DNA of 39,843 bases. Source: a virus. Under the pieces are notes generated by a model. The model ran no database searches. It had not been told where the DNA came from and saw nothing but the letters and a program-made list of their open reading frames with translations. The translations under genes were made by a program, and so were the position numbers. The stretch is from positions 1 through 39,843 of the IMG/VR virus record IMGVR_UViG_3300033141_005354; one strand, written 5' to 3'. Shown here piece by piece: positions 4,876 through 38,061 of this stretch (position 1 is its first letter; every line of letters begins with the position of its first letter).

Positions 4876-5145
4876 ATGTTAAAAGATGAAAATAAAAAAG
4901 CTATATTACTGGAATTGATAGCCAGAACGGAAGGCAGGATATTTACGGCTGAAATTGAAGAAAGGTATTTAAATAGAAAAATACTTGCCGGTACTTCAAA
5001 AGAAAAATGGCAAAGGGTATTAGCCGGCGTCCAACAACAAAGAAAATCAGACCAAGAAAGGTTGGATTTCTATAATGAAGTATTAAAAGAATATGACCAT
5101 ATCCGAATTCACGAAAATAAGGAAACTGATAAGGATACTGCTTAA
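4876..5145 (+). CDS. Hypothetical charged protein before the collagen-like fiber
   Basis: The 89-aa protein is strongly charged and predicted helical; no known family is recognised. Lys/Glu-rich helices fill residues 1-80, with [16 protein letters not shown] in the middle. It starts with ATG at 4876 after AGGGTTCAGCATT, with no clear ribosome site. The last 53 nt overlap the start of the collagen-like fiber gene in another frame, so the two are probably co-translated. It may be a chaperone or an attachment piece for the fiber; that is inference from position only. Confidence 0.7.
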
Positions 5146-8100
5146 AAAAGCCGAGGAAGAAGCCCTTAAAGGAGGGGAGATTTTATCAGAGCGGGACAAA
5201 AATAAAATTAAAGCTGAAATAATAAAAGAGGCAGGTTTCACATTAGCGGAATACGACAGATTTGAGATAGAGCGGAAGGCAAAAAGAAGAAAAACTTTAA
5301 GGGGAGAAAAAGGCGAAAAAGGAGACAGGGGACCGCAAGGTCCGCCGGGACCGCCGGGACCCCGTGGTCCGAAAGGAGAAAAGGGCGACAGAGGACCAAG
5401 GGGAGAAAGGGGACCGCAGGGACCGAAGGGCGAACCGGGAAAAGACGCAGACCAGTCCAGAATAGACGAAACCATAGATAATGTAAAGTGGCAAATAGAA
5501 GAGGACATTAAAAACTTAAAAGAAGAGCTTCCAGACCCCAAAGACCTTAAAACCCTAACCGACGGCTCAAACGCTGATAAGCTCCATACCCATAATATAA
5601 AAAATGTGGTTCAGCAAGTTATTCGGGGAGGCGGAGCGGCGCAGGACTGGGTGGAACAGCATTTTTATACAAAAGACGAGATAGACAGCTTGGTAGGAAC
5701 TGGCGGCGGCGTTTGGGGCTCTATCACGGGCAATCTTTCAGACCAGACTGATTTACAAGCCGAATTGGACGCTTTACTGAAATTAGACCAGACATCGCCG
5801 CAAACAATTACAAACGGAATTCCTCTTTTAAATACAACCCCGAGCGGAAGCGCCGATATTAAGAGCTTGGTAAACAAGGAATATGTTGATTTCGCCGTAA
5901 CTTCTCTCGGAGCGAGCTATTATATGTATGACGAAGACGACGCCACGGGATACAAGACCTGTTACCTTAATCCTTCGGCAGACGCAGAGACATACATAGA
6001 GGCGGCAGATTTGACGGATGACGCATATATCGGTGGCTGGATTTCGGCATCGGGAGAAGCACCCTCAAAACTATTAAAGGGAATATATAATTGGTATATT
6101 ACATTAGAAAAAACAACTGGCACAAAGGATTTAAGAGTTTATTGGAAATTAATTGAGAGAAAGTCGGGCGGTTCAGAAACAGTTATCGCCACAAGCTCAA
6201 ATTCAAACATTATTACTGATAAAGCGTCTTACCTTATTCCTCTACAATTGGAAGAAGACTATATTCTTGAGGCGGGAAGCAGAATTGTGGGAAAGCTTTA
6301 CGCAGATGTATCGGGAAGCGGAAATGCCCCAACCGTTAGGATATACTATCAGGGAGACATAAGTTCAAGGTGGGAGATACCAGCAAATTCAGAGATTTTT
6401 CAAAACATTTTTGTCCCTTATGACGGAGCGAAAAAAAATGTTGATTTGGGAGATAAAAACTTAACCACAACGGGAGATATAACGGCTGGAAACCTAAACA
6501 TTTCCAACTGGGATACAGCTTACGGGTGGGGCGACCACTCGGCGGAGGGTTATTTAAAGGATATTACTGGTGAAAGCATAGGAGATTTATCAGATGTGGA
6601 CTTAACGGATATTGCCAATGGCAAAATACTAAAATATAATTCTACTTCTGGAAAATGGGAATGCGAAACTGAAAGCGGCGGCGGAGCTACCCAATTATCA
6701 GATTTGTCTGATGTAAATACCGCAACCCCAACAGCGGGAAATGTTTTAAGAGCCGACGGGGTTGATTGGGAATCTACCACTCTTTCCCATTCGGATTTGT
6801 CTGACGTTAATTCTGACGACCACCACGCAAGGTATGCTTTGACCGAAGATTTATCTTCAAATGAAATAACCCAACTGCAAAACATTGATTCGGTTACTAT
6901 CAGCAATACCCAATGGGGATATCTTGGAGCTATGACCGCACAGCCGTTAGAGGATTTGTCGGGATTAACAACAGATGATTTAAGCGAAGGAAGTTCAAAT
7001 AAATACTATTCAAACGCCTTGGTTGATTCTCATTTATCGGGCGGGACAGGAATAAGCTATTCTTCGGGAACTATCAGCTTGTCTCATTTAGGGTTTGAAA
7101 GTTTAACAGACCCAGGTGCGGATAGAATACCTTTTTGGAACGATACAGCTGGAACTTTTGAGTGGAAAGATTTTTCTAACTGGGACACTGCCTATTCTTG
7201 GGGCGACCACTCAATCGCAGGATATTTTGTAAAGGGAACTGACTCCATAGACGAGGCGAGCGATGTGGACACGACAACAGATACGCCGACGAAGAACGAG
7301 GTTTTGAAATGGAATGGAAGCAAATGGGTTCCAGCGTCTTATGATTACAGTTTTGTTTTCTCAATAGCGTCTTTCAGCGACGGAGAAACAACAACTCAAT
7401 TGATTGGTTCGGGAGTATGGAGGGCAAACGGAACTATGAGTTATTCCGCAACATATAATAATGGACCGCCGACAAACGCTGATGTCAAAATGTCAATAAA
7501 CGGCGGAGCGTATAATTCTGTGGGAAGTATGGCTTCGCCAGATTACGAAAGCGGGACAAACAATCAGGACATTAATTATCCCGCAAGCAAAGACCAGTAT
7601 TTAAGATTTAGATTAGAGGCGACAGACGGGACCGATAACGATACAAGATACGAAGGTGCGATTTATTTCAGAAATTACTTATACTGGGGCGTTTCCGCTA
7701 AGAATTCTGGATTTACCGAAGCAGATATCGAGGGGCTGTCTGGAAGCCAGTTAACAAACGACCATACCCAATCAAAAAGCATAAATGCGGGAAGCGGGGA
7801 ATATCTGGTTTGGGCTTGCCCAGCGAGTTATACTAACTTGCCTACGGGAACGGATTATGAGACAGACGGCGGCGGGACAGGATTTGTCTTTAAGGGAATG
7901 ACTTGTGCGTTTCAGACAAAGGAAACGGTAAGCGTAACAAACTCTGCGGGTTATACAGAGGATTACGAAGTTTATGCTTCTACACTGCCTAACTTGGGAA
8001 GCGGCACTTTAACCACTTATACTTCCCGACAAGCGATAAATAAAATTTATTACGGAGTTACCACAAAAACAAGCGGATATACGGAAAGCGATGTGGAAAA

Positions 8101-8371
8101 CCTTGAAAAATCGGAAATTACCAATGATTCTACGCAGGTTTGGGACGCTTTAACCGCAGGGTCGGGAGAGTATTTATTGTTTGCTTTCCCAAAGAGGTGG
8201 GGCGAAAAAGGAACAAATTATAGTTTTTATGATTATTCAACAGGTTTTGAAGCGGCATTTTTAAATGCGGAAACTGTCAGTATCACAAACCAAAACGGCT
8301 GGACAGAAGATTTTTATGTTTACCGTTCTGAAAACGCCAACCTCGGAACAATAACAATACAAACCAAATAA
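5093..8371 (+). CDS. Collagen-like tail fiber / receptor-binding structural protein
   Basis: The 1092-aa protein has a charged helical N-terminus (1-70), then 16 perfect Gly-X-Y triplets at residues 71-118 (5303-5446) such as [20 protein letters not shown], then a long modular shaft. Shaft modules include [12 protein letters not shown] (near 468) and [12 protein letters not shown] (near 696), DLSDV repeats and a [20 protein letters not shown] block. Two related domains form the C-terminus (about 865-985 and 986-1092), each with YWGV/YYGV, SGEYL and a WTEDF-like motif. Collagen triplets are known in phage fibers, where they form trimeric rods. It is surely a virion surface fiber; which part binds the host is not visible. 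Confidence 0.88.
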
Positions 8372-22473: not shown

Positions 22474-22501
22474 TTGACAGGGTTGCTTGGTTTGTTATAA
22501 T
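22474..22501 (+). promoter_or_regulatory. Strong sigma70-like promoter before the replication gene
   Basis: TTGACA at 22474-22479 and TATAAT at 22496-22501 with a 16-bp spacer, and TGT as the extended -10 immediately before TATAAT. This is the best promoter in the window. It would drive the early region starting with the small ORF at 22524 and the initiator at 22647. Confidence 0.85.
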
Positions 22502-22646: not shown

Positions 22647-23408
22647 ATGGAACAACAAACATTATTCAAAGTAAGAGATAAAAGAAATAAAGGTTGGTTT
22701 TGGGTTGAAAATGATTATTTTAATGGTTTTGGAAAGATTTTGGGGGCGAAAGCAATAGCTGTATATGTTTCTCTTTGCCGCCACGCTGATAACGAACAGA
22801 AATGTTTTCCTGCCCAAAAGACAATTGCCGAAGAAACTAAATTGGGAGAAAGAACGGTAAGAAATATTATCAGAGAGCTTGAAAAATATAAAATTATTGA
22901 AACAACTAAAGAACGAAACTCCCGAGGGCAATGGCTTAATAATGTTTATTGGTTATTAGATAAAAGTGAATGGATATATCCACCAGAGGCAACCAGTGCC
23001 GATGGTAAGCCAGAGGCAAAAAACGACATATCCAGAGGCAAAAAACGACATATCCAGAGGCAACCAGTGCCGCTTAACAATACTAATAGGAACAATACTA
23101 ATAATAATATTATATTACATACAAAACAAAGTTTTGATGACCTTAATTCATTAATTTATTTATTTAAAAATGTTAATCCTTCTTATAAACAACTATTTAA
23201 AAGAAAAACAGAACGAAATGCTTTGGAACGCCTTATTAAGGAGCACGGCGTAGATAAAATTACTAAAATTATTAAAATACTTCCTAAGAGCAACCAAATT
23301 AAATATGCCCCAATTATTACTACGCCCATTCAATTAGAAAATAAACTCGGTGTTTTATTAGCTTTTTTTAAACAAGAAAGCGGTAAAAGCCGAAAAATCA
23401 AATTATGA
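22647..23408 (+). CDS. Phage replication initiator, lambda O-like organisation (HTH_36 domain)
   Basis: The 253-aa protein has an N-terminal winged-helix region (residues 32-92: LGAKAIAVYVSLCRHADN, PAQKTIAEETKLGERTVRNI, IRELEKYKIIETTKER), typical of phage O-like or DnaD-like initiators. The linker (113-142) is coded by a DNA repeat array (22983-23072), followed by an A/T-rich stretch and a basic C-terminal domain. Iterons within the initiator gene followed by A/T-rich DNA is the organisation of lambda ori in gene O. It probably binds these iterons and recruits host helicase. The stop overlaps the next ATG. Confidence 0.75.
   Translation: MEQQTLFKVRDKRNKGWFWVENDYFNGFGKILGAKAIAVYVSLCRHADNEQKCFPAQKTIAEETKLGERTVRNIIRELEKYKIIETTKERNSRGQWLNNVYWLLDKSEWIYPPEATSADGKPEAKNDISRGKKRHIQRQPVPLNNTNRNNTNNNIILHTKQSFDDLNSLIYLFKNVNPSYKQLFKRKTERNALERLIKEHGVDKITKIIKILPKSNQIKYAPIITTPIQLENKLGVLLAFFKQESGKSRKIKL
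22983..23072 (+). repeat. Four iterons (candidate replication origin)
   Basis: Four copies of a CCAGAGGCA core begin at 22983, 23010, 23032 and 23054. The spacing between the last three is exactly 22 bp, two turns of the helix. The outer two copies share CCAGAGGCAACCAGTGCCG, the inner two share CCAGAGGCAAAAAACGACAT. As 22 is not a multiple of 3, the repeats are in different reading frames, so selection must be on DNA. A/T-rich DNA follows at 23073-23175. Confidence 0.85.
23073..23175. other. A/T-rich tract next to iterons (possible DNA unwinding element)
   Basis: About 80% A/T over 100 bp, including many AATA and TTAATTTA steps, directly after the four iterons and inside the initiator gene. 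This matches the layout expected of a melting region in an iteron origin. Confidence 0.55.
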
Positions 23409-25867: not shown

Positions 25868-27127
25868 ATGAAGAAAATAACCAAACTTACCCCAGAGCAA
25901 GAAGCTAAAATCCCAAACTATATCAAAAAATGGGTTGATTTGGCGTCTCAGCCGATTGATAGGGGAAAAATTAAGGAACTTGTAAGAAGAGTTTTCAAGG
26001 AAGATAAGTTGGTGATTATGGGAGAGTCAATTGAAAATATTTGTGGGTTAATAAAAGTAGCAATGAAAAAAACACCAAGAAGGATAGCCGTTTCCCAGCT
26101 TTACTCCCAGCTTCACTCCCAGCTTGACTTCCAGCTTCACTCCCAGCTTCGCTCCCAGCTTTATTCCCAGTTTTGCTCCCAGCTTGACTCCCAGCTTTAC
26201 TCACAGCTTCACTCCAAGCTTTATTACCAGTTTTACTCCCAGCTTGACTCCCAGCTTCACTCCCAGCTTCGCTCCCAGCTTGACTCCCAGCTTTACTCCC
26301 AGCTTCACTCCCAGCTTGACTCCCAGCTTTATTACCAGTTTTACTCCCAGCTTGACTCCCAGCTTGACTCTCAGCTTGACTCCCAGCTTCACTCCCAGCT
26401 TTACTCCCAGCTTCACTCCCAGCTTCACTTTCAGCTTAGCTCTCAGCTCCGCCAACAACTTATTAATATCAAAAACAACGAGTTATCTATTTCTTTTTAT
26501 TTAACTTATTATCTATACGATTGGGCCGGTTATTATGATTATGCGAGATATATCGGGGTAAAATTTGATGAGGAAAAATTAAATCTTTTCTTTGATATAT
26601 TGTTAAACCTTTCTATATCGGTGTTTGTGGGAAATGTAATTTTTGTTTGCGAGAAGCCCCAAATTTCTTGGCTTGAAGGCAAACTTCATTCTTCCACCGA
26701 TAAAGCTATCAAATGGAAAGATGGGACAGGATTTTATTATTTTCACGGAATTTATTTTGAAGACCCGCTGGCAGAGAGGATTATAAGTAAAAAAATCTCA
26801 GCTAAAAAGATATTTAAATTAGAAAATAGTGAGCAAAGAGCAATAGCAATTAAAATGTTGGGGGCGGAGAAACTAATTAAGGAGCTTGGCGGAAAAGTAA
26901 TAGATAAACGCAAATATAACTATGGCATTGATTATTTAATAGAGTTGAAGGGATTTAAGGACGGGATGGGCGAACCATATAAGTTTCTTAAAGGATACGA
27001 CCCGGCGGAGAAAGATTATGTATACATCAGAACCCACCCAAGGGTAAAGAATGTTCAGGAAGCCCATAATTTCTGCTATCGGCTCCAAATGTTTAATGTG
27101 GATTACAATCCTTCTTTGAGAACTTGA
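25868..27127 (+). CDS. DUF6745-type protein with long tetrapeptide repeat
   Basis: The 419-aa protein has a short N-terminal domain (LTPEQEAKIPNYIKKWVDLA), then roughly 30 four-residue units of form SQL[YHDR] (residues about 75-195), then a C-terminal domain with WLEGKLHSSTDKAIKWKDGT, YYFHGIYFEDPLAERIISKK and LGAEKLIKELGGKVIDKR. The C-domain pattern (x-HS..-AI-W-DG-G-Y-FHG) matches DUF6745, whose members commonly hold WDSL-type tetrapeptide repeats in the same place. It overlaps no neighbour; the partner gene is 2 nt upstream. Cellular role unknown. Confidence 0.7.
   Translation: MKKITKLTPEQEAKIPNYIKKWVDLASQPIDRGKIKELVRRVFKEDKLVIMGESIENICGLIKVAMKKTPRRIAVSQLYSQLHSQLDFQLHSQLRSQLYSQFCSQLDSQLYSQLHSKLYYQFYSQLDSQLHSQLRSQLDSQLYSQLHSQLDSQLYYQFYSQLDSQLDSQLDSQLHSQLYSQLHSQLHFQLSSQLRQQLINIKNNELSISFYLTYYLYDWAGYYDYARYIGVKFDEEKLNLFFDILLNLSISVFVGNVIFVCEKPQISWLEGKLHSSTDKAIKWKDGTGFYYFHGIYFEDPLAERIISKKISAKKIFKLENSEQRAIAIKMLGAEKLIKELGGKVIDKRKYNYGIDYLIELKGFKDGMGEPYKFLKGYDPAEKDYVYIRTHPRVKNVQEAHNFCYRLQMFNVDYNPSLRT
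26088..26450 (+). repeat. 12-bp tandem repeat array
   Basis: About 30 copies of a 12-bp unit (TCCCAGCTTNAC and close variants) lie inside the DUF6745-type gene. The unit stays in frame. Other frames over the array are also open, which is a result of the repeat and not real coding. Confidence 0.9.
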
Positions 27128-28286: not shown

Positions 28287-29234
28287 ATGAAGAAAGAAAA
28301 GAAAATTGAAAACCAAATTCATTCCTTTCCTAAAATATTTCATATTGGAGAAAGTTTTATAAGCAATCTTTTTGAAGGAAGGGTGGAAATAAGCGAAAAA
28401 ATAGATGGAAGCCAATGGGGCTTTGGAATTACCAATGAGGGAGAAATAGTTTATAGAAGTAAGGGACAAGAACTGACTTATAAAGATGTTCCAAAGATGT
28501 TTCAAAAAGCAAAGAAACAAGTAGAACGATTACAGCCCATTCTGAAAAAAAAATTTAGAGATGTGTTCTTTTATTGTGAATTTTTAGAACAACCCTGTCA
28601 CAATATTCTGAAATATAAGAGAATACCCAAAAATCATTTATATCTTTTTGGGGTAATGGAAGGAAGAAATTTTGTGAGTGATTATAAGAAACTTTGGGAA
28701 TACGCCGACTTATTGGAAATAGAAAGAGTAAATATTCTTGATTATAAAGAAATTAAGGAGGTTGCTAAGTTAGAGGAATATTTAAAAGAAGAAAGTATTT
28801 TGGGGAATGAGAAAATAGAGGGGATTGTTGTTAAAAATTATAATCAACCAAGCGGAAAAGGAAGTTTTATTATTCCGATTTCAATGGGGAAATATGTAAA
28901 AGAAAATTTCAAGGAACGGCTCAAAAAAGAGTGGAAAGGTAAATTTACAAGCAGGGGAAAATTAGAGCTTTTGATTGAAAGCTTTCACAGTGAGGCAAGA
29001 TGGAAAAAAGCGATTCAACATCTTAAAGAAAGGGAAGAATTGGAAAATGCCCCACGAGATATAGGAAAACTAATGAAGGAAATAGAAAAAGATTTAATAG
29101 AAGAGGAAAAGGAGAATATTAAAAATGAATTATATAAGATTTTTATTGGAGATATTATAAGAAAAGCCAGAGGGGGTTTTCCAGAATGGTATAAAAAACA
29201 ATTATTAAAAAGAAGTTTTAGGGGGAATAAATAA
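28287..29234 (+). CDS. RNA ligase (Rnl2/RNA_ligase family)
   Basis: The 315-aa protein has nucleotidyltransferase motif I EKIDGSQWGF with Lys38, Asp40 and Gly41 (K-x-D-G), a YRSKGQ element near 56-61, motif III-like FFYCEFLE (94-101), motif IV EGIVVKN (178-184) and a motif V-like KYVKENFKE (202-210). Order and spacing match the RNA_ligase fold, in which Lys38 would carry AMP. The C-terminal helical region (215-310) is longer than the catalytic core. It starts with the shared MKKEKK cassette. It may repair host tRNA or mRNA breaks made as antiphage defence. Confidence 0.8.
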   Translation: MKKEKKIENQIHSFPKIFHIGESFISNLFEGRVEISEKIDGSQWGFGITNEGEIVYRSKGQELTYKDVPKMFQKAKKQVERLQPILKKKFRDVFFYCEFLEQPCHNILKYKRIPKNHLYLFGVMEGRNFVSDYKKLWEYADLLEIERVNILDYKEIKEVAKLEEYLKEESILGNEKIEGIVVKNYNQPSGKGSFIIPISMGKYVKENFKERLKKEWKGKFTSRGKLELLIESFHSEARWKKAIQHLKEREELENAPRDIGKLMKEIEKDLIEEEKENIKNELYKIFIGDIIRKARGGFPEWYKKQLLKRSFRGNK

Positions 29235-32092: not shown

Positions 32093-32180
32093 GGGGGGGA
32101 GTGAGGCGAGTTGGGGAGAAGGGATTTAGGTATATATCCTCCCCACAGAAAAAACCCAAATTTGACAACTTTTGATAAGA

Positions 32181-32210
32181 GAATTCAAGAGAATTCAAGA
32201 GAATTCAAGA
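32181..32210 (+). repeat. Three perfect 10-bp direct repeats before the terminase large subunit
   Basis: GAATTCAAGA is repeated three times without a gap (32181-32210) and a fourth partial copy follows. It ends 10 nt before ATG 32220. A terminase binding site is conceivable from position. Confidence 0.8.
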
Positions 32211-32219
32211 GAACTACTT

Positions 32220-33551
32220 ATGATTTCAGACGCTAAAATACAGGAAAAACTGAAATGGCGGCCCCATTCTGGACAGCAGGAGGTGCTTGATTGCCAGAAC
32301 AGGGAGGTGATAGTAGCCGCTGGAAGGGGCTGGGGAAAGAGCCAGCTGATGGCGTATATCGTTTTTAGGGAATTAGCCCGCTATCTGCTGGATAAGAAGT
32401 CCTTCAAATCGTTTATAATAGCGCCTACTTATCAGTTGACGGAAAAAGTATTTGAGCATTTTTTGGGAACATTTCTCTTAAAATACAATAAAGGATTGGG
32501 AAGGTTTGTCTCGGGCGGCTCAAATAGACCTTACGAGTTCAAGTATTCGGCGGATACTTGGATACAATGCAAGTCTACGACTGAGCCGAATTCTATGCTT
32601 GGAGAAAGGGTGGATTTGGAGATAGTTGATGAGGCGGCGAGGATACCGGCCAAGATATACCGCCAGAATATCAGACCGGCTTGCCCAAAGGGAAGAGTTT
32701 ACTACATTTCCACGCCGAGGGGAAGAAACTGGTTTCAGGACAAATTTTATGCTTTAAGGGAAAAGAACGCTTCCTTCCAGTTTTCTTCAACGGACGGGGT
32801 TTATTACACAGAGGAGATGATAAACGAGGAGAAAAAAGAGACGCCAGAATTATTGTTCAGGCAGGAGTATTTGGCGGAATTTGTTTCTAATGCCGGCTCG
32901 GTATTCCAGAACATAGATAAAATAATCAGGGATAACATACAGGAAGACGCTGTCCCGAACAGAAACTATATCATAGGCATAGATATGGCGGAGACCCACG
33001 ACTGGACGGTTATGGTCGTGATAGATACCTCAACCCATAATGTTGTCCATATAGACAGGTTTAAGGGAAGGGATTACCCGCTGCAGAAGCAGCATATTAT
33101 AGCTAAAGCCAGAAGATACAATAACGCTCGGATAGTTATGGATGCCTCTGGCGTGGGAAAGCCGATATACGAGGATTTGAGGCAATCGGGCTTAATGGTG
33201 GAAGATTTCGTTTTCACGGGGCGGAGCAAGAAAGAGCTTATAGGAAAGCTGATAGTGGCGGTTGAGAACCAGTATATCCAAATTCCCCGCTATCAAATCT
33301 TGATAGATGAGCTGAAAGCGTACGAGTATAAGTGGGTAAACGAGAAAACTGGCTTGCCGTTAAAGGAAATACAGTATGGACATCCTATCGGATTTACGGA
33401 CGATTGCGTGGACGCTCTGGCTCTGGCGGTCTGGGACTTGCCCTCCTTTAAGCCGAGAATTAAAACCCCCGTGGAGGAAGAAATAGAGAGGATAGGGAAG
33501 GCCGCAAAATACGGGGGAAAAAGAAGATTAAGAAAATTTTCAATGATATAA
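32220..33551 (+). CDS. terL: Terminase large subunit
   Basis: The 443-aa protein carries Walker A GRGWGKS (35-41), Walker B-like LEIVDEAA (133-140) with catalytic Glu, the coupling STPRGRNWFQ motif, and the nuclease acidic cluster: GIDMAETHDW (about 257), MDASGVGKP and TDDCVDALALA. It pumps DNA into the prohead and cuts it. ATG 32220 was chosen over an in-frame TTG at 32172 because the latter lies in the 10-bp repeats. Length is normal for Terminase_6-type subunits. Confidence 0.92.
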   Translation: MISDAKIQEKLKWRPHSGQQEVLDCQNREVIVAAGRGWGKSQLMAYIVFRELARYLLDKKSFKSFIIAPTYQLTEKVFEHFLGTFLLKYNKGLGRFVSGGSNRPYEFKYSADTWIQCKSTTEPNSMLGERVDLEIVDEAARIPAKIYRQNIRPACPKGRVYYISTPRGRNWFQDKFYALREKNASFQFSSTDGVYYTEEMINEEKKETPELLFRQEYLAEFVSNAGSVFQNIDKIIRDNIQEDAVPNRNYIIGIDMAETHDWTVMVVIDTSTHNVVHIDRFKGRDYPLQKQHIIAKARRYNNARIVMDASGVGKPIYEDLRQSGLMVEDFVFTGRSKKELIGKLIVAVENQYIQIPRYQILIDELKAYEYKWVNEKTGLPLKEIQYGHPIGFTDDCVDALALAVWDLPSFKPRIKTPVEEEIERIGKAAKYGGKRRLRKFSMI

Positions 33552-33557
33552 AATAAT

Positions 33558-33701
33558 ATGCCTTTACCAAAAAAACGTAAAAATGAGGATAAGCAGAAAT
33601 TTATATCCAGATGTATGTCTTCGGAAGTTATGAAGCGGGAATTTCCCGACCCGAAGCAGAGAATTGCCGTTTGCCTTTCGCAGTATAGAAGAAAGAGATA
33701 A
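33558..33701 (+). CDS. Conserved small protein between terminase and portal
   Basis: The 47-aa protein starts MPLPKKRKNEDKQKFISRCM and ends QRIAVCLSQYRRKR. The pattern ISRCM...PDxKQRIAVCxSQ is common in a tiny phage protein coded near terminase or portal. Function is unknown. Confidence 0.7.
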   Translation: MPLPKKRKNEDKQKFISRCMSSEVMKREFPDPKQRIAVCLSQYRRKR

Positions 33702-33735
33702 GCCGCGAAATAATTTAAAACAAGAAAATTATATT

Positions 33736-35451
33736 ATGAATATAGCGGATATAAAAAACGAAATTAAAATTTATGAGGAAACAGAGCTGGAAGGAAACCC
33801 TTCTTACGCCAAAACCCAGCCAGAGCTTTTAGATTTGATTGAGAAGTATTCCAATTCGCAGTTTAGGGATGCGGAATATGACGCTCAGGGCTATAAAAAG
33901 CTGTTTTACAATGTCTCGGACAATCCGAGAGATATCGGAAAAAAGGAGACAGACCTGAATTTGGGTAATGTTCATATCGAGACGGAGTCGGGGCATAATT
34001 ACTACATAGGATGGCTTTACGAAAAAGAATTGCGGTTTTGGATGAAGGAAAATGATATCAGCGTAAAACTGAACCAGCTGAGAAACCATTTTATAGATTA
34101 CGGGACCTGTATCGCCAAAAAAGTTAAAGACAAGGTTTATATAGTTCATCCCAAGAACTTGATATCTGACCCAGAAGCCGAAAACCTTGAAGACTCTGAA
34201 TTTATTATAGAAGTTCATCAGTATGCGCCCAAGACATTGATAGAAATGGGAAGGAAGAAGGGCTGGTATATGAATAAAATTATTGATATTGTAGAGAAGA
34301 GCAAGGGCGGAAAAATCAAGGTTTACGAGAGATACGCCGAGGAAGACGAAAACGGCAACAACTTCTTTTTAATAGCAAAGATAGGCGAAGAATTTTCAGA
34401 AGACGGGATAATATACGAAGGAAGGAGAGAGCCCCAATACAAGGTGGCTAAAATGGAAGAGGTATTCGGAAGATTTCTCGGGAGGGGAGTTATTGAGAAG
34501 CTTTTAGAGCCCCAAATAGCCAAGAATGACATCAATTACTATCTCCAAAAGGGATTAAGAATATCGTCTCTTCATCTGTTCCAGAGCAAAGACCCGAATA
34601 TCGGCAAGAATACCTCGCTTTTAGAGGAAGAAGACGGAGCTATCCTTCACGTTTTAGACGACATAAATGCAGTTCCGCTGGAAGAAAGAAATCTGCCCGC
34701 TTACAGCTATTTAGACCAATTATGGGAAAAAAACATAGAAGAGAGGTCTTTCTCTTACGAGGCAATGGGAGGACAAAGACCGCCCGCGGGGCTTACTCTG
34801 GGAAGCCACCAGTTATCAATAATGAAGGCAGGGGGATATTTTGAGGACAAAAAGGATTCTCTCGCCATACTATTTAGAGACATTATTACCGACTGGGTAA
34901 TCCCCGGCTTTAAGAAAAAGAAGAAGAAACTCCATAAGCTTCCAATATCCAAACTGCTTGGCGGAAAAGAAGATTCAAGCCGCTTCTTCAATGCTTTATT
35001 AGCCGAAAGGATGAGGAAAAAACGGCTGGAAATGATGAAAAAGGGCAAATATCTTATGGGGGCTGACTGGGAAATAATCAGAGGAATACAGGCGAAGATA
35101 CTCAAAGAAGAAGACATAATCGTTCCCGACGAAATTTATGAGAATATCAATGAGAAGGTAACGGTTGTCATTACGGGCGAGCAAATCGGAGGGCAAGCAG
35201 AGATAACCGTGCTGAACCTTATTCTTAATATGGCTAACAACAATCCCGCCGTTTTCAATAACCCGACAACAAGAAGGATAATTTCTAAGATATTAGACAG
35301 GTATGGGATAAATCCTGTCGAAATACTGCCAGAAGAAACGCCAGAGATGGAAGAATCGTTAGCGATGGCAAGGGGTATGGAAATGGGCGGTTCGCTTCCC
35401 GCCCCGAATATAACAACTCCCACGATGGTTAGGGCGGGAGCAAGAGTATAG
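33736..35451 (+). CDS. Portal protein
   Basis: The 571-aa protein is taken from ATG 33736, since upstream in-frame codons overlap the preceding gene. It has the length and location of a portal. Segments typical of the wing and stem are present: GRGVIEKLLEPQIAKNDINY, EERSFSYEAMGGQRPPAGLT and WVIPGFKKKKKK. The portal forms the dodecameric DNA gate at one capsid vertex. Flanks: terminase and scaffold. Confidence 0.82.
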   Translation: MNIADIKNEIKIYEETELEGNPSYAKTQPELLDLIEKYSNSQFRDAEYDAQGYKKLFYNVSDNPRDIGKKETDLNLGNVHIETESGHNYYIGWLYEKELRFWMKENDISVKLNQLRNHFIDYGTCIAKKVKDKVYIVHPKNLISDPEAENLEDSEFIIEVHQYAPKTLIEMGRKKGWYMNKIIDIVEKSKGGKIKVYERYAEEDENGNNFFLIAKIGEEFSEDGIIYEGRREPQYKVAKMEEVFGRFLGRGVIEKLLEPQIAKNDINYYLQKGLRISSLHLFQSKDPNIGKNTSLLEEEDGAILHVLDDINAVPLEERNLPAYSYLDQLWEKNIEERSFSYEAMGGQRPPAGLTLGSHQLSIMKAGGYFEDKKDSLAILFRDIITDWVIPGFKKKKKKLHKLPISKLLGGKEDSSRFFNALLAERMRKKRLEMMKKGKYLMGADWEIIRGIQAKILKEEDIIVPDEIYENINEKVTVVITGEQIGGQAEITVLNLILNMANNNPAVFNNPTTRRIISKILDRYGINPVEILPEETPEMEESLAMARGMEMGGSLPAPNITTPTMVRAGARV

Positions 35452-36368: not shown

Positions 36369-36913
36369 ATGGCGTTTACACCTTTTACTGGAACGTACAG
36401 CAGCGGCGACTTGCAGTATGTCATTAACACCCTTTACAGCCCCAAGGTAGAGAGAGAATATCGAGCTAATCTGGTTGCTGGCGATTTCTTTGACAACTTG
36501 TCTGGAATGTTCGCGGGCGGAGGAGGTCATCTAAGCATACCCGACATTTTTACAAACCAGTTTACCGCTCAGGATAAGAGCACTGGTTCAAATGTCACCG
36601 AGCAGTCCCCCGCCGAAGCGGAACTGACCTTGACCGTTGACACTTGGAAGGAGGTCTCCTACGTAATTGAAGACCGCCAGCTGAAACAGATTATGGCAGG
36701 TTCAGATGTTTTGGACGCTTACGCTTCACAAGCGAAGTATTTAATCGCCAAGGCATTAGACACCAGCTTAATGGCTCTTTATTCAGGGCTTTCCCAGACG
36801 GTTAATGACACGGCTTCAGATGTAACCGACGCAGATGTCAGGCAAGCTATTGAGAGCATTGTTGACGGCGATGTTCCAATGCAGAGGTTGGCTTTCTTCT
36901 TTCATCCGACGGT
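36369..36913 (+). CDS. Major capsid protein, exon 1
   Basis: Codons 1 to 181 plus two bases of codon 182. The protein starts MAFTPFTGTYSSGDLQYVIN and exon 1 ends in RLAFFFHPT followed by GT of a Val codon. Continuing into the intron gives SKLPPLTAML and an unrelated basic tail. Joining 36913 to 37692 yields HPTV-IWHDLFGISKYTGVYD, a smooth capsid sequence, and an intact frame of 915 nt (304 aa). The coat is a HK97/P22-type fold by position and length; it directly follows the scaffold gene. Confidence 0.88.
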
Positions 36914-37108
36914 AAGTAAATTGCCGCCATTAACAGCAATGTTAATTGGAAAATTCTGTAAATTGCAGGGAAAACTCAAGAAGTTTATCTGCAGGCAAGC
37001 AACGGCAATAAAAAAAGCCGTTGAAGCTTCAACGACCATAATCAGAACACCCCTTGTGGGTGAAGGAATGGTCTGAACTCTATAGCGATATAGAGAGGCA
37101 ATAAGAAA

Positions 37109-37612
37109 TTATTGTCCGCCTTGATAAGAATTAGCTCTTTTACACTCTAACCACCAGTTATCTATCAGAATCCTGTCCTGTTTTGTATATTTTTTACGAA
37201 GACCCTTCTTAATACGCCAGTCAAGAAAGTTATACAAAACAGAAACAGCCCTAACTTTTTTGTAGGGTATGGAAGTATCTAAAAAGATTTTACATAGTTT
37301 GTGGCATATTATCACATTTGTGCAAGTCCAAACATAACCCTTTTTAGTATTTCCTATTTTGTAAGGATTTGGTAGGTGACCGAGATAGTTATGGTCTGAA
37401 CGAACCCAAATACTGCCACCATATCTATTTTTAATCCACTTAAGAACTGATAAATCATCATCTCTTAAGCCAATAGATATTTGTGGACGGTATAGATAAT
37501 ATGATGTTGGACCATCTGATTTCTTGTATGTTTTATGGTATCTGACTAAAGAGGCAGAACCATCAGCATAAAAGAAGCCACGAAATTCAGCGTCATTTAT
37601 AGAGTGTTTCAT
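37109..37612 (-). CDS. LAGLIDADG homing endonuclease encoded antisense in the intron
   Basis: The 167-aa protein has the LAGLIDADG-type motif FRGFFYADGSASL at residues 10-22, followed by YRPQISIGLRDDDLSVLKWI, YGGSIWVRSD and a helical DNA-contact region LDWRIKKGLRKKYTKQDR. It has one motif, so it would act as a homodimer. It lies wholly in the intron after the P7/S element but on the opposite strand to the capsid gene. A minus-strand TTGACA at 37670-37665 may drive it. It would cut intron-less capsid alleles to spread the intron. Confidence 0.85.
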   Translation of the reverse strand: MKHSINDAEFRGFFYADGSASLVRYHKTYKKSDGPTSYYLYRPQISIGLRDDDLSVLKWIKNRYGGSIWVRSDHNYLGHLPNPYKIGNTKKGYVWTCTNVIICHKLCKIFLDTSIPYKKVRAVSVLYNFLDWRIKKGLRKKYTKQDRILIDNWWLECKRANSYQGGQ

Positions 37613-37641
37613 ATTTTATATGATTATTTATTACTATCTCT

Positions 37642-37670
37642 ATGGTAGGGTGGAAGAGATAATTTGTCAA
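37642..37670 (-). promoter_or_regulatory. Possible promoter of the homing endonuclease gene
   Basis: On the minus strand TTGACA (37670-37665), 17-bp spacer and TACCAT (37647-37642), a weak -10. It lies 30 nt before ATG 37612 and inside the intron's 3' part. Confidence 0.35.
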
Positions 37671-37691
37671 GGTCATAAAAGCAACAGATTG

Positions 37692-38061
37692 AATTTGGCA
37701 CGACTTATTTGGAATTTCCAAATACACGGGCGTCTATGATTCAGACCCAGTAGTAACTGGTATGCTTGGCGGAGGCGCTACCGAAGCCAGAAAGAATGCT
37801 GTGCGCGGTCGGCTCTACGGCGTACCCGTGTACGAAACCACGCAGGTTCAGGCAGACGGAGCTTCGTCCGCTTACTACAACTTGCTGGCAGCCCCAGAAG
37901 CATTTATGTTCGCTGTCCAAATCGGACCGAGAAGCCAAGCCAATTACATTCCCGAGCAATTGGGAACGCTTTGGACAACCGATATCCTTTACGGAGTCGC
38001 TGAAAAGAGAGACGCAGCAGCCGTTGTTATCAGGTCCAGACAGACAGGGGTAGTATCTTAG
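37692..38061 (+). CDS. Major capsid protein, exon 2
   Basis: Completes codon 182 and runs to TAG at 38059-38061. It reads IWHDLFGISKYTGVYDSDPV and continues with MLGGGATEARKNAVRGRLYG, VPVYETTQVQ and AAVVIRSRQTGVVS. An internal ATG at 37762 could yield a short in-frame fragment, but the upstream exon and the splice joint show it is part of the coat. Splicing must occur for virion formation. Confidence 0.88.

Follow-up and report, generated by a model that had tools for sequence, protein, structure and literature searches.

The window, the whole 39,843-base stretch of a virus record analysed here, carries a tailed-phage major capsid gene interrupted by what is, with a probability of about 90%, a mobile, self-splicing group I intron with an antisense LAGLIDADG gene that drives its homing. 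The evidence is best explained by an ordinary selfish mobile intron whose splicing leaves the capsid unaffected. In the capsid pre-mRNA, the 5′ and 3′ portions of the intron would fold into a ribozyme that excises itself, and ligation of codons 1–181 and GT to A-ATT-TGG would yield the normal 304-aa capsid protein, as homology and the ribozyme model suggest. During coinfection of a cell by two phages, the antisense LAGLIDADG enzyme, encoded in an extension of P9, would cut a capsid allele lacking the intron at its conserved HPTVIWHDL codons, and repair of the cut allele would copy in both the intron and the enzyme gene. Through splicing, the insert would be nearly neutral. A related locus, L005, has this intron in a form without the enzyme gene.

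The interrupted capsid gene and its splice joint

The capsid gene is composed of two exons, with both splice sites set by intronless relatives:

36369–36913, plus strand: exon 1 of the major capsid protein gene, 545 nt, codons 1–181 and two bases, 3′ end ...CATCCGACGGT
37692–38061, plus strand: exon 2 of the major capsid protein gene

When joined, the exons form a coding sequence of 915 nt (304 aa plus stop) that reads FFFHPTVIWHDLFG. The gene is uninterrupted in four viral contigs, L001–L004, which read FFFHPTVIWHDL across the joint position. Because these contigs read HPTVIWHDL unbroken at the joint, homology fixes the two splice sites, and the splice joint and 915-nt frame proposed in the initial annotation are exact against them. 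L001–L004 encode three distinct capsid proteins, two of the contigs having identical ones, with 61–68% protein identity to the window capsid; a further empty allele, L015, reads HPTVVYHDLF at the joint. Since exon 2 and the intron both start with AA, three cut positions are equivalent and lead to the same mRNA; only the one chosen in the initial annotation leaves exon 1 with a terminal U and the intron with a terminal G. Without splicing, the capsid frame (36369–37076) would extend over 54 codons of intron before its stop and encode a truncated product of 235 aa; the same is true of L005. Standard gene calling would thus truncate the gene, and the capsid here would be annotated as a 235-aa protein. 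An intein was rejected as an identity for the insert, as the frame reaches a stop at 37074–37076 within it.

Residues 12–300 of the joined product match PHROG 267 (major head protein) with an E value of 3.3e-18, a profile match that identifies the product as the predicted major head protein and upholds the earlier designation of the interrupted gene as a capsid gene. Weakly similar capsid proteins are present in Anabaena phage A-4L, Podophage Lau218, and a Pelagibacter phage, and a search of cellular genomes for the capsid family found none. The predicted structure of one intronless capsid relative (pLDDT 29.6) is too poor for fold searching or for recognising an HK97 fold. The large terminase gene, at 32172–33551, lies just upstream of the interrupted capsid gene, with a probable portal gene (33664–35451, weak profile matches) between the two. 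The source of the interrupted gene is a tailed phage, a virus of bacteria.

Several features elsewhere in the window are also apparent. Positions 5093–8371 encode a probable tail protein of 1092 aa with a collagen-like stretch, and an RNA ligase gene (PF09414, E 4.9e-13) occupies 28287–29234. In the ORF at 25868–27127 (419 aa), a 12-base unit is repeated approximately 30 times at 26093–26448, resulting in a long (YSQL/HSQL/DSQL) repeat. A perfect extended sigma-70-type promoter-like site (TTGACA, 16 nt, TG, TATAAT) is located at 22474–22501, before an HTH_36 gene at 22647.

The ribozyme and the antisense reading frame

The initial annotation had assigned the insert to the group I introns and proposed a covariance search. 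That search bears the assignment out: Rfam family RF00028 matches positions 36904–37095, a region containing the conserved P3–P8 core, with 70.0 bits (curated cut-off 50) and an E value of 6.4e-16. The intron comprises the following parts:

36914–37691, plus strand: group I intron, 778 nt, RF00028 70 bits, with a 267-nt form at the same site in L005
36918–36926, plus strand: internal guide sequence AAAUUGCCG
36929–37095, plus strand: ribozyme core P2–P9, RF00028 match
36929–36946, plus strand: P2
from 36953, plus strand: P3/P4
37000–37023, plus strand: P6a
ending at 37039, plus strand: P7 5′ strand, GACCAU
37048–37062, plus strand: P8
within 37063–37078, plus strand: P7 3′ strand, AUGGUC
37078–37095, plus strand: P9, with a GCGA loop
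37096–37691, plus strand: P9 extension housing the probable endonuclease gene, closing with the terminal G at 37691

The 5′ end of the intron is AAGTAAATTGCCG and its 3′ end is CAGATTG. The internal guide sequence forms P1 (CGGU/GCCG, with U-G at the cut) with the final 4 nt of exon 1 and P10 (AAUUU/AAAUU) with the initial 5 nt of exon 2. The window intron also contains P2, P3, P4, P5, P6a, P7, P8, and P9 as well as the terminal G, and the P1, P10, core elements, and terminal G described earlier are all present. The pairing of P9.1/P9.2 is ambiguous: a hand-drawn P9+P9.1+P9.2 arrangement has an energy of −18.2 kcal/mol versus −25.5 kcal/mol for an alternative hairpin, and the hand-drawn assignment was not adopted because this alternative is more stable. 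There is no P7.1/P7.2 between P7 and P3, which argues against subgroup IA.

The main content of the insert, an antisense ORF that probably encodes an endonuclease, is absent from the initial annotation, as is the comparison with L005. The features on this strand are as follows:

37109–37612, minus strand: antisense ORF P0001, 167 aa, probable single-motif LAGLIDADG homing endonuclease, inserted after P9; weak LAGLIDADG_1 match
37642–37670, minus strand: candidate antisense promoter TTGACA-17-TACCAT, upstream of the endonuclease ORF, 10/12 consensus match
37016–37037, minus strand: candidate intrinsic terminator of the antisense transcript, nine pairs followed by TTTTTTATT

P0001 is the longest antisense ORF, and an ORF of equal length is seen in 0/20000 shuffles of the intron. 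Residues 12–75 match Pfam LAGLIDADG_1 with an E value of 0.006 and 17.9 bits, under the curated cut-off of 23.1, and the same N-terminal stretch weakly matches a LAGLIDADG fusion protein (PDB 6bcg, E 0.66). The predicted structure of P0001 (pLDDT 41.9) is too poor for fold searching. No relatives of the endonuclease were found in viral contigs, genome contigs, phages, or plasmids, and no clear palindromic endonuclease target was seen at the insertion site or joint. From its sequence, P0001 is probably a single-motif LAGLIDADG homing endonuclease.

The antisense promoter is a candidate that is suggestive only. The candidate terminator corresponds to the P6–P7 part of the ribozyme read backwards, with a T run after the hairpin. 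Counts of promoter-like and terminator-like sites around the antisense gene are at chance level for the region.

The antisense ORF could alternatively be decaying or inactive, with splicing retained and the element no longer self-mobile. This alternative is unlikely, although it is the most serious of those considered. The weak LAGLIDADG score is in keeping with it, as are the failure to recognise a ribosome-binding site before the P0001 ATG and the absence of the gene from L005; losing the endonuclease gene is a recognised step in the homing cycle. However, the ORF is open for 167 codons, the motif FFYADGSASL is intact, and the near identity of the window and L005 introns argues for recent movement.

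Probable movement of the intron between phages

The L005 locus, on a contig shared with L006, contains an intron of 267 nt (RF00028 67.2 bits) at the identical capsid site. The L005 intron differs in missing one segment of the window:

37133–37643, no strand assigned: endonuclease cassette, 511 bp, missing in L005; boundaries accurate to one or two bases

Because the intron recurs in L005 at an identical position, the window intron is not an assembly artefact. The endonuclease-bearing form is observed in one contig only, as would be seen if the insert were an assembly chimera or an unspliced, gene-breaking insertion, but such an origin is extremely improbable given an independent contig with the same intron in the same place, the precise fit of the ribozyme, internal guide sequence, and P10 to the joint, an exon 2 that is in frame, and a capsid protein approximately 92% identical to that of L005.

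The shared intron is identical between the window and L005 at 265/267 positions (99.3%, 2 differences), as compared to 789/915 positions of the exons (86%, 126 differences) and 211/305 third codon positions (69%, 94 differences). These contrasts are strong for both intron versus exons (Fisher p 1e-12) and intron versus third positions (Fisher p 2e-26). Since ribozyme constraint poorly explains the identity of the loops as well, the near-identical intron between diverged exons most likely reflects recent transfer of the intron between the window phage and the L005 phage. Intron-bearing and empty alleles are also unlike in the bases beside the joint: P10 can form 5/5 pairs in the window, 4/5 in L005, and 3/5 in all empty alleles tested; better pairing in the intron-bearing alleles is as expected if flanks were co-converted or had coadapted. 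The cassette does not include the final codons and the stop of the antisense ORF, which lie in intron sequence common to L005. Two histories would fit: loss of the gene from L005 with a vestige left behind, or gain of a cassette whose end was supplied by sequence already present. Together, the alleles represent a natural series at one capsid site: empty (L001–L004 and L015), intron alone (L005), and intron with antisense endonuclease (window).

The initial annotation also suggested that splicing could be a regulatory point for virion formation. Every capsid protein of this phage would depend on splicing, and the unspliced frame ends in the truncated product, so the rate of splicing could conceivably set the timing or amount of capsid protein. 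Such a role is nevertheless very unlikely: four intronless relatives do without the intron, and the pattern of presence, absence, and near identity is that of a mobile element. The regulatory proposal is unsupported, and the comparisons fit a selfish mobile element.

Comparison with known introns

Approximately 50 nt of P7–P9 are common to the window intron and Pseudoalteromonas phage J2-1 (Qingdaovirus) and its relatives, with 86% identity. In contrast to the window, the introns of J2-1 and its relatives are located in another gene, have an HNH endonuclease on the sense strand, and occur several in tandem. In J2-1 (L008 2791–4560), two group I introns are positioned back to back, followed by an apparent third with an HNH gene. 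This stretch is unannotated, follows the gene for a 453-aa hypothetical protein, and is variable among the related viral contigs L021–L024. An antisense endonuclease gene is also found in the P9.2 extension of the group I intron Dsq.L2066 of Didymium squamulosum (PMC9548176), although this intron resides in myxomycete nuclear rDNA and its His-Cys endonuclease gene is split by a spliceosomal intron (PMC9548176).

The closest architectural counterpart is mycobacteriophage LittleE, whose major capsid gene (gp13/gp14) is interrupted by a group I intron that carries a LAGLIDADG gene on the bottom strand (Pope et al. 2013; PMC3706429). Splicing of this capsid intron was demonstrated by RT-PCR and N-terminal sequencing, and lactococcal phage Tuc2009 is also cited in the same work (PMC3706429). 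The rarity of capsid introns emphasised in the initial annotation is thus weaker than claimed. Similar to the window intron, the LittleE intron (approximately 819 nt, 30.7 bits with RF00028) has its antisense gene, encoding a 177-aa I-CreI-like LAGLIDADG protein, just after P9. The two introns differ in that the LittleE insertion site is elsewhere and its intron DNA has no significant similarity to that of the window; BLASTP gives no alignment between the LittleE endonuclease and P0001. A smaller relative of the LittleE intron, in phage BAKA, lacks the endonuclease, as does the L005 form here. The LittleE and BAKA forms are found in different genes, whereas those of the window and L005 are found at one site. 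The combination of capsid intron and antisense endonuclease is therefore already known from LittleE, and the window provides a second, independent example from a phage unrelated to LittleE. A matching antisense terminator was looked for in LittleE and not found. Speculatively, and with low confidence, placement of an antisense LAGLIDADG gene after P9 in two unrelated introns (n=2) could represent a recurrent solution in very highly expressed late genes, one that would provide the endonuclease with its own promoter, keep it off the ribosome-loaded capsid message, and, in the window, possibly use the reversed ribozyme core as a terminator.
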